From Enterobacter mori LMG 25706 (GTDB lineage Bacteria; Pseudomonadota; Gammaproteobacteria; Enterobacterales; Enterobacteriaceae), in contig NZ_GL890775.1 in NCBI RefSeq assembly GCF_000211415.1, positions 391,253 to 455,252 on the forward strand: a DNA stretch of 64,000 nucleotides, given 5' to 3'. The notes under the pieces were generated by a model that did not search any database, was not told the DNA's origin, and saw nothing but the letters and a program-made list of their open reading frames with translations. Shown piece by piece: positions 8,023 to 49,163 of this stretch (positions are counted from its first letter, which is position 1; each line of letters opens with the position of its first letter). The position numbers and the translations under genes were made by a program.

Positions 8023-8922
8023 TTATTTTTCTGCGATTTGTTCCACAAAGGTCGCGAAAACCGAACTGTTTAATGCCGAGCGATTATAAATCATGTAAAC
8101 GTCCAGGGGAGGAAGCGTAAACGGGACGTCTAATTTTTTGAGCCTGAGCACATCTCTGTATTTATTAAATAACGGTTCGGGTATGTAGCCCAGCAGATGG
8201 GATGCGCTGATCATGGTTATAATGGTAAAGACTGAGTCACAGCGAAAAGCAATAGTCCTTTCCATATGGACTTTCTCCACCAGTGACTGATAGTTTTTGA
8301 CGCCCGCCTCATCGCTGAGGAAGACGGTAAACTTCTCTTCCTGCAACTCCTCCATTGTGACAACGTCTTTCATGCGCGGATGATCTTGGCTGCACACCAG
8401 AATCATAGGATAACTTGCATAGGGAACGCAGACCATTGAGCGGTTGTTGACCGGGGCCATAGAGAAGATAAGATCCGCTTTACGGTATGCCAGCAGACTC
8501 TCCGCGGAATCAGCAGCAAGCAACATGTCATGTAACTCAATTTCGTAATTATGCTCTCTCATCAATAGCTTAAGTGGGTTAAGCAGATTGTTGGTTGTCA
8601 GGATCTGGGCGCTGTAAACAACAAAATTCTTCTTAAGCGAGGAGCCATGCATGATGTTAATCGTCTGCTCAAGCTGATTGAGGTTTTGCTCAAGATGGTG
8701 GTGAAGATTAACCCCTACGGTGGTGGGCGTGATGCCTTTGCCAGAGCGAATAAAAAGCGGATCGTTGAGCTGATTACGCAACCTTTGCAGCGACTGACTT
8801 ACCGCTGAGGGGGTGATATAAAGCGTTTCGGCTGCCTTACTAATACTGAGATGCTGATAGATACATTCGAAAATGACCAACAGATTAAGATCGAATTTTT
8901 TGAGGTCGTAGAGGTTTGCCAT
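8023..8922 (-). CDS. ybdO: LysR-family transcriptional regulator YbdO
   Basis: A 299-residue LysR-type regulator. The winged helix-turn-helix occupies roughly residues 8-67 (LNLLVIFECIYQHLSISKAA..., then ITPSAVSQSLQRLR) and is followed by the effector-binding domain. Start 8922 gives the same N-terminus as E. coli YbdO and has an AGGAC ribosome-binding site; an upstream in-frame ATG at 8961 is less likely. Its target is not evident: LysR genes usually control a divergent neighbour, which in E. coli is dsbG, but dsbG is absent here and the next gene is ahpC, 624 bp away. Confidence 0.92.
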   Translation of the reverse strand: MANLYDLKKFDLNLLVIFECIYQHLSISKAAETLYITPSAVSQSLQRLRNQLNDPLFIRSGKGITPTTVGVNLHHHLEQNLNQLEQTINIMHGSSLKKNFVVYSAQILTTNNLLNPLKLLMREHNYEIELHDMLLAADSAESLLAYRKADLIFSMAPVNNRSMVCVPYASYPMILVCSQDHPRMKDVVTMEELQEEKFTVFLSDEAGVKNYQSLVEKVHMERTIAFRCDSVFTIITMISASHLLGYIPEPLFNKYRDVLRLKKLDVPFTLPPLDVYMIYNRSALNSSVFATFVEQIAEK

Positions 8923-9197
8923 GTTTCGTCCTGAGGGTGCCGAGTTTGCTGTGGTTAGCACATCACTGATAACTATAGTTTGAAGTTAACCATTTACAAT
9001 CCCTGTGGTTAACTCACTTAATTTTAAATTTAAGTTACCTTAATATATCACGCTATCAAATTAATGAAACAAAACTTCAGGGGTGGTTAAGATAATTTTA
9101 TCTTTAAAGGTCGAGCGCATGAATTGAATGACAATTAATATTTATATATGGTGCGGGATTCATCACTGAATTGTATTTATAACATTCTGAGAACATG
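8923..9197. other. AT-rich gap upstream of ybdO, no gene seen
   Basis: This is the first part of the 623-bp gap between ybdO and ahpC. It is clearly AT-richer than its surroundings, with no open frame that looks coding. In E. coli K-12 dsbG occupies this position; no remnant of a thioredoxin-fold protein is visible on either strand. Confidence 0.6.
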
Positions 9198-9233
9198 TTC
9201 GATCATACCTATCACAGCCATAGGCAGGACTAT
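9198..9233 (+). promoter_or_regulatory. Candidate OxyR binding site upstream of ahpC
   Basis: The elements CTAT (9209-9212), seven bases, ATAG (9220-9223), six bases, CTAT (9230-9233) follow the OxyR pattern of ATAG/CTAT quarter-sites about one helical turn apart. The leftmost quarter-site at 9198-9201 is poor and the last gap is one base short. OxyR is the established activator of ahpCF, so the assignment is plausible but only by eye. Confidence 0.4.
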
Positions 9234-9245
9234 CTCTCTTATGGA

Positions 9246-9274
9246 TTGCTCATTGCTCGCGTGAATGGTGTAAT
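9246..9274 (+). promoter_or_regulatory. Candidate sigma-70 promoter downstream of the OxyR-like site
   Basis: A -35 element TTGCTC (9246-9251) and a -10 element TGTAAT (9269-9274) are separated by exactly 17 bp, with the OxyR-like site ending 12 bp upstream. Transcription would start near 9281 and run rightwards into the structured region and then ahpC. Confidence 0.35.
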
Positions 9275-9280
9275 CAAAAC

Positions 9281-9398
9281 GCTGTTACCGCCTTGATATA
9301 AAGGGTTGTAGAGCGCAACGCAACGCCAGCTTCGGCTGGCACTGAATGTACCTGCGGGGAATTCAGGTATCAGGGCCGCCCGTTGAGGCGGCCTTTTT
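9281..9398 (+). ncRNA. Candidate structured small RNA or ahpC leader
   Basis: Three successive hairpins lie between the promoter-like pair and ahpC: GCCAGC-UUCG-GCUGGC (9325-9340, a UUCG tetraloop), UACCUG/CAGGUA with a nine-base loop (9349-9369), and a final GC-rich stem followed by five U (9374-9398). The order, tight spacing and intrinsic-terminator end resemble a small RNA or a terminated leader of ahpC. I do not recognise a known RNA family. The open frame antisense to it (9239-9427) looks non-coding. Confidence 0.35.
9374..9398 (+). terminator. Intrinsic terminator upstream of ahpC
   Basis: Perfect 7-bp stem GGCCGCC (9374-9380) and GGCGGCC (9387-9393) with a six-base loop, followed by TTTTT. 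It faces rightwards and lies 148 bp before ahpC, so it would end any transcript from the promoter-like pair at 9246-9274, or attenuate it. Confidence 0.7.
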
Positions 9399-9545
9399 AC
9401 TTTCAGGCTCCCTTTAATAAGGTTCACCTTGCTGTCTTGTCGACGTTGTAAGGTTTGGCTGATTGATTTGATAAAGCATACGCATTAGCCCCGATGAAGA
9501 AAGTTGGTTACCTTACATCTCAACGAAAACACGGAGGAAGTACAG

Positions 9546-10109
9546 ATGTCTTTGATTAACACTAAAATTAAACCTTTCAAAAACCAGGCGTTCAAAAACG
9601 GTGAATTCATCGAAGTTACCGAGAAAGATACCGAAGGCCGCTGGAGCGTCTTCTTCTTCTATCCGGCTGACTTCACCTTCGTTTGCCCGACCGAACTGGG
9701 TGACGTGGCTGACCATTACGACGAACTGCAGAAGCTGGGCGTAGACGTTTACTCTGTCTCTACCGATACCCACTTCACCCACAAAGCATGGCACGGCAGC
9801 TCTGAAACCATCGCGAAAATCAAATACGCGATGATCGGTGACCCGACTGGCGCCCTGACCCGTAACTTCGAAAATATGCGTGAAGATGAAGGCCTGGCCG
9901 ACCGTGCGACCTTCGTTGTTGACCCGCAGGGCATTATCCAGGCTATCGAAGTTACCGCTGAAGGTATCGGCCGTGACGCATCTGACCTGCTGCGTAAAGT
10001 GAAAGCCGCTCAGTACGTGGCTTCTCACCCAGGCGAAGTGTGCCCGGCGAAATGGAAAGAAGGCGAAGCGACGCTGGCTCCATCTCTGGACCTGGTCGGT
10101 AAAATTTAA
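9546..10109 (+). CDS. ahpC: Alkyl hydroperoxide reductase peroxidase subunit AhpC
   Basis: Typical 2-Cys peroxiredoxin that reduces hydrogen peroxide, organic peroxides and peroxynitrite, recycled by AhpF. The 187-residue protein has the peroxidatic Cys47 in FVCPTE and the resolving Cys166 in EVCPAKW. The ATG at 9546 sits behind a strong GGAGG ribosome-binding site; an upstream in-frame start at 9504 would add 14 residues unlike the family. Codon use looks like that of a highly expressed gene. It is followed by ahpF after a REP-containing gap. Confidence 0.98.
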
Positions 10110-14456: not shown

Positions 14457-14494
14457 ATCCAAAAGAAAACCCTCGCCGTCTGGCAGCGAGGGTT
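14457..14494 (-). terminator. Terminator-like hairpin in the rnk leader
   Basis: A 9-bp stem AACCCTCGC/GCGAGGGTT with a nine-base loop, followed on the minus strand by TTCTTTT. It lies 44-81 bp upstream of the rnk start codon and within a few bases of the predicted transcript start, a position suited to attenuation. Confidence 0.5.
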
Positions 14495-14505
14495 TAACTC
14501 TCCCG

Positions 14506-14549
14506 ATGATACTGGCTGAGCGTGCAAGTTTGAAGTGATGAAGGTCACA
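14506..14549 (-). promoter_or_regulatory. Candidate CRP-dependent promoter of rnk
   Basis: On the minus strand a CRP-like site TGTGA-N6-TCACT (14534-14549, nine of ten core bases) overlaps a weak -35 TTCAAA, which is 17 bp from a -10 TATCAT (14506-14511). With a start near 14499 the CRP site centres about 42 bp upstream, the class II arrangement. Confidence 0.45.
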
Positions 14550-14662
14550 TTCACGGCCCATATGAATTTTCGCTGAAATTTATTCAGTCTTCATTCCGGG
14601 CGGAATACGTTACGCTGAGTCTTTTGAACCTGGGCGTTGCGCGCCCCCAACGAGAGAGAACT

Positions 14663-18836: not shown

Positions 18837-19026
18837 CTGACAAAACGTTACAAACTGGCGAAAAAGTGCACTCTCGTTGAATCGTAAAGGATAAAAATCC
18901 GTCAACGAAAATTAACGCGACTTTTGTCACTTTTTAGCAAAGATCCGCTGGACAAAAGGTTCCACAATTGATGTACTGATACCCGACACAGCACTTGTGT
19001 CGTTTTTTAATGTAAAGGTAATTTTG

Positions 19027-19236
19027 ATGTCTAAGATTAAAGGTAACGTTAAGTGGTTTAATGAGTCCAAAGGATTCGGTTTCATTACTCCTGAAGATGG
19101 CAGCAAAGATGTGTTCGTACACTTCTCTGCAATCCAGTCTAATGGTTTCAAAACCCTGGCTGAAGGTCAGCGTGTTGAGTTTGAAATCACTAACGGTGCC
19201 AAAGGCCCTTCTGCTGCTAACGTAATCGCTCTGTAA
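19027..19236 (+). CDS. cspE: Cold-shock-like protein CspE
   Basis: A 69-residue single cold-shock domain that binds single-stranded RNA and DNA. RNP1 (KGFGFI) and RNP2 (VFVHF) are intact. CspE is made constitutively in E. coli, melts RNA hairpins and acts as an antiterminator. A strong terminator follows directly. Confidence 0.97.
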
Positions 19237-19260
19237 TTCAGACGCGTCAGCAAGAATTTC

Positions 19261-19288
19261 AAAACCCGCTATTTGAGCGGGTTTTTTT
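19261..19288 (+). terminator. Intrinsic terminator after cspE
   Basis: An 8-bp stem AACCCGCT/AGCGGGTT with a five-base loop, followed by five further T. It ends the cspE message and also faces the small gene on the opposite strand. Confidence 0.9.
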
Positions 19289-19297
19289 CGTTCTGAA

Positions 19298-40002: not shown

Positions 40003-40014
40003 AATAAACTCCAG

Positions 40015-40039
40015 AAAAAAAAGGGTAGCAGCGCTACCC
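40015..40039 (-). terminator. Intrinsic terminator/attenuator between gltI and gltJ
   Basis: A 7-bp stem GGGTAGC/GCTACCC with a three-base loop, followed on the minus strand by eight T. It forms the 3' end of SroC and limits readthrough into gltJKL. Confidence 0.88.
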
Positions 40040-40180
40040 TCGAAGATTGGTGAGAAGCTCATTTTCGCGCTGAGTGGGGAACGACCACTCAACGTATAGT
40101 CTGTCCATGCTTCCCGACAATCGAGAGGGCAGGAGATCCCGCCCCTGTCGTTCTAATTAGTTAAGCGCTTTATCGTTTGG
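40015..40180 (-). ncRNA. sroC: SroC small RNA (gltI-gltJ intergenic)
   Basis: In E. coli and Salmonella SroC is a roughly 160-nt decay product of the gltIJKL message, covering the end of gltI and the gap to gltJ; it sponges the GcvB small RNA. The same gap here is 154 bp, ends in a strong intrinsic terminator and holds two further stems (GAGTGG/CCACTC near 40073-40090 and a GC-rich one near 40130). The 5' end is an estimate, since it is made by RNase E. Confidence 0.65.
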
Positions 40181-48463: not shown

Positions 48464-48538
48464 TGGCTGGGGTGCAGGGATTCGAACCCCGGAATGCTGG
48501 TATCAGAAACCAGAGCCTTACCGCTTGGCGACACCCCA
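48464..48538 (-). tRNA. glnX: tRNA-Gln (CUG)
   Basis: A 75-nt cloverleaf with encoded CCA and anticodon CTG in the loop TTCTGAT. It differs from the neighbouring Gln(CUG) copy: the last acceptor pair is G-C instead of A-T (a compensated change), and the T-stem has one G-T pair. Last gene of the seven-tRNA operon. Confidence 0.97.
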
Positions 48539-48575
48539 ATTGCGTTAAACAGACTGCTTAACGACTTTTTTAAAT

Positions 48576-48650
48576 TGGCTGGGGTACGAGGATTCGAACC
48601 TCGGAATGCTGGTATCAGAAACCAGAGCCTTACCGCTTGGCGATACCCCA
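48576..48650 (-). tRNA. glnV: tRNA-Gln (CUG)
   Basis: A 75-nt cloverleaf with encoded CCA, anticodon CTG and fully paired T-stem. Sixth gene of the operon. Confidence 0.97.
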
Positions 48651-48694
48651 ACAATTTTTTCTAGTCTATCGAATAACTCGACAGATTACTAATT

Positions 48695-48771
48695 TGGTGG
48701 CTACGACGGGATTCGAACCTGTGACCCCATCATTATGAGTGATGTGCTCTAACCAACTGAGCTACGTAGCC
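48695..48771 (-). tRNA. metU: tRNA-Met (CAU, elongator)
   Basis: A 77-nt cloverleaf with encoded CCA and anticodon CAT. The first pair is G-C, so this is elongator, not initiator, tRNA. The sequence is identical to the copy at 49087-49163. Confidence 0.97.
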
Positions 48772-48788
48772 AGTACTGCAATCTTCGA

Positions 48789-48863
48789 TGGCTGGGGTAC
48801 CTGGATTCGAACCAGGGAATGCCGGTATCAAAAACCGGTGCCTTACCGCTTGGCGATACCCCA
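48789..48863 (-). tRNA. glnW: tRNA-Gln (UUG)
   Basis: A 75-nt cloverleaf with encoded CCA and anticodon TTG in the loop TTTTGAT. Identical to the next copy at 48896-48970. Confidence 0.97.
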
Positions 48864-48895
48864 ATACCGCGGAGAACCGCAAAATCGAAGAAATA

Positions 48896-48970
48896 TGGCT
48901 GGGGTACCTGGATTCGAACCAGGGAATGCCGGTATCAAAAACCGGTGCCTTACCGCTTGGCGATACCCCA
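48896..48970 (-). tRNA. glnU: tRNA-Gln (UUG)
   Basis: A 75-nt cloverleaf with encoded CCA and anticodon TTG, identical to the copy at 48789-48863. Third gene of the operon. Confidence 0.97.
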
Positions 48971-48993
48971 TCCGTGCAACGCTATCCTGGGAA

Positions 48994-49078
48994 TGGTGCG
49001 GGAGGCGAGACTTGAACTCGCACACCTTGCGGCGCCAGAACCTAAATCTGGTGCGTCTACCAATTTCGCCACTCCCGC
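48994..49078 (-). tRNA. leuW: tRNA-Leu (UAG)
   Basis: An 85-nt class II tRNA with a long variable arm, anticodon TAG and encoded CCA. It lies between metT and glnU, as in E. coli. UAG here is the anticodon reading CUA-type Leu codons, not an amber suppressor. Confidence 0.97.
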
Positions 49079-49086
49079 AAAAAAGA

Positions 49087-49163
49087 TGGTGGCTACGACG
49101 GGATTCGAACCTGTGACCCCATCATTATGAGTGATGTGCTCTAACCAACTGAGCTACGTAGCC
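49087..49163 (-). tRNA. metT: tRNA-Met (CAU, elongator)
   Basis: A 77-nt elongator tRNA-Met with encoded CCA, first gene of the operon, eight bases before leuW. Confidence 0.97.

Follow-up and report, generated by a model that had tools for sequence, protein, structure and literature searches.

The stretch 5′ of ahpC, a gene for peroxide detoxification, in the window (the whole 64,000-nt stretch of DNA analysed) contains, in order, an OxyR-like site, a promoter, a folded RNA of about 120 nt and an intrinsic terminator. The RNA had not been recognised in the sequence-only reading; judged by its Rfam score, it is a further member of a family that already has a name, STnc70 (RF02069). Apparently it is turned on by the peroxide sensor OxyR and terminated at a stop signal of its own, and its probable nature is therefore that of a small regulatory RNA derived from the beginning of the ahpC message. 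The explanation favoured here, with about even confidence, is an OxyR-induced small RNA derived from the 5′ UTR when transcription of the ahpCF leader terminates early; its main rival is a plain attenuator. The locus as a whole lies well beyond chance expectation because of the paired changes in its helices, its place before ahpC and the spacing of the OxyR-like site.

The gene ahpC (9546–10109, + strand; Pfam AhpC-TSA; ATG at 9546) has on its other side a LysR-type gene (8023–8961, − strand) and, as was read from the sequence earlier, no dsbG is found in the gap between these two genes. The OxyR-like array proposed before ahpC is present as a predicted 37-nt binding site at 9198–9234 (+ strand) with 13 of the 20 bases of the OxyR consensus. 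A score of at least 13/20 is reached at 7 of about 64,000 window positions. The adjoining of an OxyR-type site and a promoter is a feature expected of the OxyR regulon. The promoter, a −35/−10 pair with a 17-nt spacer that had also been noticed before, is TTGCTC-17-TGTAAT at 9246–9274 (+ strand; −35 at 9246–9251, −10 at 9269–9274). It was not listed by a simple promoter scan, TTGCTC being a poor −35. The only promoter-like site listed by the scan is on the other strand, which is fewer than expected (1 vs. 1.7 in shuffles), and for this reason hexamers alone prove nothing. Table 1 of PMC3946193 assigns TTGCCC-17-TGTAAT to ahpCF as its promoter in E. coli. The same sequence is the distal promoter found in the E. 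coli loci, equivalent to that of the window; the RNA would therefore represent the prematurely terminated 5′ part of the ahpCF transcript. A possible proximal ahpC promoter, TTGTAA-18-GATAAA (9446–9475, + strand), was noticed by eye in a conserved region (mean majority 0.83), and it is not listed by the simple scan either. The part of the window just 5′ of ahpC (9446–9500) is conserved even in relatives without the distal promoter; in many relatives its counterpart reads AATGCAAACGCATT or similar, which by eye resembles a protein-binding palindrome.

The Rfam search placed STnc70 at 9311–9405 with a score of 62.6 bits (E 4e-10), above the cut-off of 40; this is the sole match of this family in the genome. 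The sequence and structure match extends across the whole Rfam model, and the RNA lies before ahpC as in relatives, a place that is not a stated Rfam criterion. The Rfam model differs from the window RNA in two respects. It begins inside the RNA, leaving an extra 5′ hairpin of the window uncovered, and 58 of its positions correspond to just 3 in the window, from which a stretch of about 55 nt is absent. This stretch is carried by four of the five genomes of genus g46, supposed from the family name to be Salmonella, and in these four (L002–L005, match 1501–1649) it sits within hairpin P1. Model positions of about 21–80 alone match elsewhere in nine genomes (G144, G170, G176, G273, G304, G319, G321, G364 and G373), so the stretch probably represents an interspersed repeat that was incorporated into the model. 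OxyS resembles STnc70 in being an RNA for which control by OxyR is expected, but it differs from the window RNA in sequence and genomic place. A search of the region with E values as high as 1 gave no OxyS match; a match to OxyS (RF00035) with 74.6 bits, just below the cut-off of 75, is located on another contig (G000:C13), and the RNA before ahpC is separate from OxyS because the latter is located elsewhere in the genome. RcsR1 was dismissed as well (17.5 bits vs. 60).

The predicted transcript occupies about 9281–9400 (+ strand), and it is matched at G000:C4:400527-400655 by R1, a model built in the present study. The fold of 9282–9403 has an energy of −51.1 kcal/mol (z −3.43), which was equalled by none of 200 shuffles. 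The three consecutive hairpins described earlier are all present on the + strand, including the one with the UUCG loop, but a further hairpin at the 5′ side, P0 (about 9281–9314), had been missed; it lies mostly outside the Rfam match. The others are P1 with the UUCG loop (9325–9340), P2 (9342–9366) and the intrinsic terminator P3 with its U-run (9372–9398; hairpin 9372–9395). The terminator was correctly foreseen, with five T (9394–9398) located 147 nt before the ATG of ahpC. Five is short for a U-run, and a terminator alone means little here, since positions 8900–9700 contain one against 0.6 in shuffles.

Compensatory changes in the stems among relatives had been named beforehand as a test, and they were found. 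In an alignment of 75 sequences (A1), 91.0% of the cells of the named structure P0–P3 pair; a control with the partners slid along gave 32–53%. Of the 33 pairs, 19 change on both sides, as do 93 cells; the corresponding shuffle values are 9.7 and 25.6, and none of 500 shuffles was as high. Shuffle tests of this sort are inflated by relatedness, and the structure was named from the same sequences. Double changes are present in all six helices counted, with 5/6 outer and 1/4 inner pairs of P0, 3/6 pairs of P1, 5/8 of P2 and 5/9 of P3. For these reasons of relatedness and naming, weight is put on the variety of pair types, as at columns 117/130 with 20 AU, 19 GC, 14 GU and 7 CG. RNAalifold run unaided on the same alignment recovered P3 and part of P2, with double changes in 9 of 15 pairs, and missed P0 and P1. 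A UUAC/GUAA pseudoknot of P2 was rejected: 71.9% of the cells of this helix are paired, and 40 of 500 shuffles reached its covariation score. Over 72 sequences, the distance from the −10 to the U-run is 118.4 nt (sd 7.9) and that from the U-run to the ATG 159.6 nt (sd 17.0); the position of the terminator is tied to the promoter, not to ahpC.

The earlier idea of a lineage-specific region was not confirmed. The RF02069 search gave matches in 76 of 392 family genomes at E 0.001 (62 above the cut-off) and R1 in 129 of 392 at the same threshold. The R1 scores show a break, with 75 genomes at 47.6 bits or more and the next at 37.2 and lower, and ahpC is downstream in each of the 75. In 74 of them the match shares its strand with ahpC and ends 117–176 nt before that gene; the remaining one, G028, has no listed ahpC place, but an ahpC start lies 3′ of the RNA in its locus L024. 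Among nine R1 matches below 40 bits within the family that were checked, two (G210 and G099) are before ahpC and seven elsewhere, and the other weak matches were treated as chance. Elsewhere in the order no copy was accepted: among 247 genomes of the order, the best match outside the family has 38.9 bits (G484) and is, by eye, near the end of an apparent flagellin gene. Partial DNA matches, 60–80% identical, occur in 5372 of 5426 E. coli genomes, and in the two inspected the matching DNA lies before ahpC, unannotated.

A total of 222 loci were taken, of which 153 contain the ahpC start and 139 of these are distinct. Among the ahpC upstreams, the OxyR core is found in 103, the distal promoter in 100 and both in 91. 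The members of A1 were picked by promoter and terminator, independently of the OxyR site; at the expected distance from the promoter their OxyR score (the best of four positions) averages 13.9/20 and is at least 13 in 65 of 75, against a mean of 7.5 and 0.3% of places at 13 or more elsewhere upstream of ahpC. A terminator-like hairpin ends 90–130 nt past the −10 in 78 of the 100 upstreams with the distal promoter, one of which, L196, was doubted and excluded from A1. In seven the hairpin ends at 77–84 nt (the short form), in four at 179 nt (an insertion), and in one, L193, it was misplaced by the script, the terminator being present in the sequence. The script found no terminator hairpin in 10 of 100, including L182, where a remnant can be seen by eye; hence, the RNA appears dispensable in some lineages.

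With at most one mismatch allowed, the short form occurs in 14 of 392 genomes, belonging to genera g20, g66 and g72. By coordinates or sequence, it is directly 5′ of ahpC in 12 of these, at a contig end in G165 and separated from the gene in G389. Matches with three mismatches (G365, G241 and G040) were treated as chance, because a backwards control pattern also matches at up to three mismatches in several genomes. The short form retains P0, the linker GCGCAAC and the terminator, without P1 and P2. By eye, the loop of its terminator repeats the GCAAC of the linker in L171, L175, L184, L194 and L207. In G389 (L256, G389:C11:228700-232600) about 2.2 kb separate the short-form RNA from ahpC, with an insert beginning close to the terminator and containing a gene of the peptidyl-arginine-deiminase type (Pfam PAD_porph) antiparallel to the RNA and, by eye, a LysR-like ORF. 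The promoter, P0, linker and terminator are kept. Its two flanks share 92% and 97% identity with those of G267; P0 and the linker are unchanged between the two genomes, and two bases differ farther on; the insertion, seen in a single genome, may be recent.

The linker GCGCAAC (9313–9319, + strand in the window) is a candidate seed; its part GCAAC (9315–9319) is at least 90% conserved. In the 65 A1 sequences with GCAAC its mean chance of being unpaired is 0.60, and it is mostly paired in E. coli-type and g140 sequences. In 10 chosen sequences, base pairing was sought between the RNA and a segment made up of the 70 nt just 5′ of ahpC and 9 nt of the gene; it was rejected, z lying between −2.0 and 1.0 with a single sequence at −2.0. 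The E. coli and g140 groups also have weak terminator hairpins, from −9.2 to −11.9 kcal/mol in two E. coli and four g140 sequences, against a mean of −17.0 kcal/mol (from −22.6 to −11.9) in 72 other long forms.

Site, promoter, fold, terminator and place before ahpC are conserved together. This fits the earlier proposal of a peroxide-induced small RNA or a terminated ahpCF leader, although the RNA turned out to be widespread and already present in Rfam. In the mechanism proposed, peroxide-oxidised OxyR would bind 9198–9234 and bring RNA polymerase to the distal promoter of ahpCF, with transcription starting near 9281. Part of the transcription would halt at the intrinsic terminator near 9398, releasing the structured STnc70 of about 120 nt, and the remainder would continue into ahpCF, to which the proximal promoter may add. 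The released STnc70 might then pair with other messages through the GCGCAAC linker, alongside OxyS. The small-RNA reading is preferred because of the above-cut-off RF02069 match, the OxyR-like site at a fixed distance and the compensatory changes in six helices; because the terminator is tied to the promoter and the RNA segments are more conserved (mean majority among relatives 0.64–0.80) than the spacer after the terminator (0.51); and because the short form keeps GCGCAAC without P1 and P2 and G389 keeps the RNA despite the gap. Counted against it are the 10 upstreams without a terminator, the five-base U-run, the weak E. coli hairpin with GCAAC paired there, the reported low expression of STnc70, the restriction of the G389 case to one genome and the unpaired chance of GCAAC of only 60% on average. 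A wider proposal, which we hold at somewhat below even confidence, is that many Enterobacteriaceae possess a second OxyR-induced small RNA beside OxyS, derived from the 5′ part of ahpCF and acting in trans through GCGCAAC, and that in E. coli its terminator has decayed and its seed has become hidden.

A quite plausible alternative, which we nevertheless put clearly short of even, is that the terminator acts only in cis, setting the OxyR-driven flow into ahpCF in a regulated or leaky manner, with the short RNA as a by-product. As expected of an attenuator, the terminator lies between the promoter and the first gene of the operon, and the RNA sits between the ahpCF promoter and ahpC in all 75 strong matches; the distal promoter is the one given for E. 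coli in Table 1 of PMC3946193, terminator strength is unlike between E. coli and the others, and the promoter is retained in the 10 of 100 upstreams that lack the terminator. However, no alternative fold emerged from the centroid, which equals the best fold except for one pair of P0, or from the single alternative pairing tried, which was weak. The linker is conserved yet lies outside the terminator, and in G389 P0 and the linker are unchanged though ahpC is 2.2 kb off behind other genes. It is improbable that the element is a plain unregulated terminator shielding ahpC from transcription that starts at the distal promoter or farther upstream, with ahpC expressed from the proximal promoter and the RNA roleless. 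The proximal region (0.83–0.90) is indeed more conserved than the RNA, and some upstreams hold it alone, but the OxyR site and the distal promoter are conserved too, the latter being the listed E. coli ahpCF promoter, and paired changes occur in hairpins besides the terminator. A short coding RNA or leader peptide seems very improbable. A ribosomal coverage value of 6.5 is given for STnc70 of E. coli O157 in the table of PMC5331693, and in many relatives P0 contains, by eye, an AUG directly followed by UAG; however, no + strand ORF of at least 40 aa lies inside the RNA, and the mini-ORF was rejected, as it reads TTG-TAG in the window, is missing in other rows and is thus, by eye, not kept across all A1 rows.

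For STnc70 of E. coli O157, the same table of PMC5331693 lists 47 reads from the transcript and 141 from footprints, i.e., low expression with more footprints than transcript reads. Among the matched passages of the open-licence literature, this paper is the only one in which STnc70 stands as a whole word, the other two containing STnc700. The main text of PMC2515195 includes neither STnc70 nor ahpC. Nothing on a 5′ hairpin, a link to OxyR, a short form or differing terminator strength turned up in the open-licence literature, which is weak evidence of absence because most subscription papers and all supplements were outside its scope. A little-studied Rfam RNA gains a likely promoter, a likely regulator and a fuller structure. 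In many enterobacteria, ahpCF transcription, apparently driven by OxyR, encounters an intrinsic terminator, and in E. coli this terminator is weak. Should STnc70 act in trans, it would be a second small RNA of the peroxide response. E. coli RNAs derived from 5′ UTRs by early termination were reportedly described by Adams et al. in 2021 (PMC7815308), in whose main text ahpC and OxyR are absent. In that kind of RNA, the order of promoter, short RNA, stop and gene is like that before ahpC. A candidate antisense RNA, LSPncRNA41, is reported in PMC3963941 to lie opposite the ahpC 5′ UTR of Salmonella. Other Rfam matches in the window are the rnk leader, the cspA thermoregulator, sroC and seven tRNA genes, located at 14458–14566 (−), 18914–19290 (+), 40010–40161 (−) and 48467–49163 (−).
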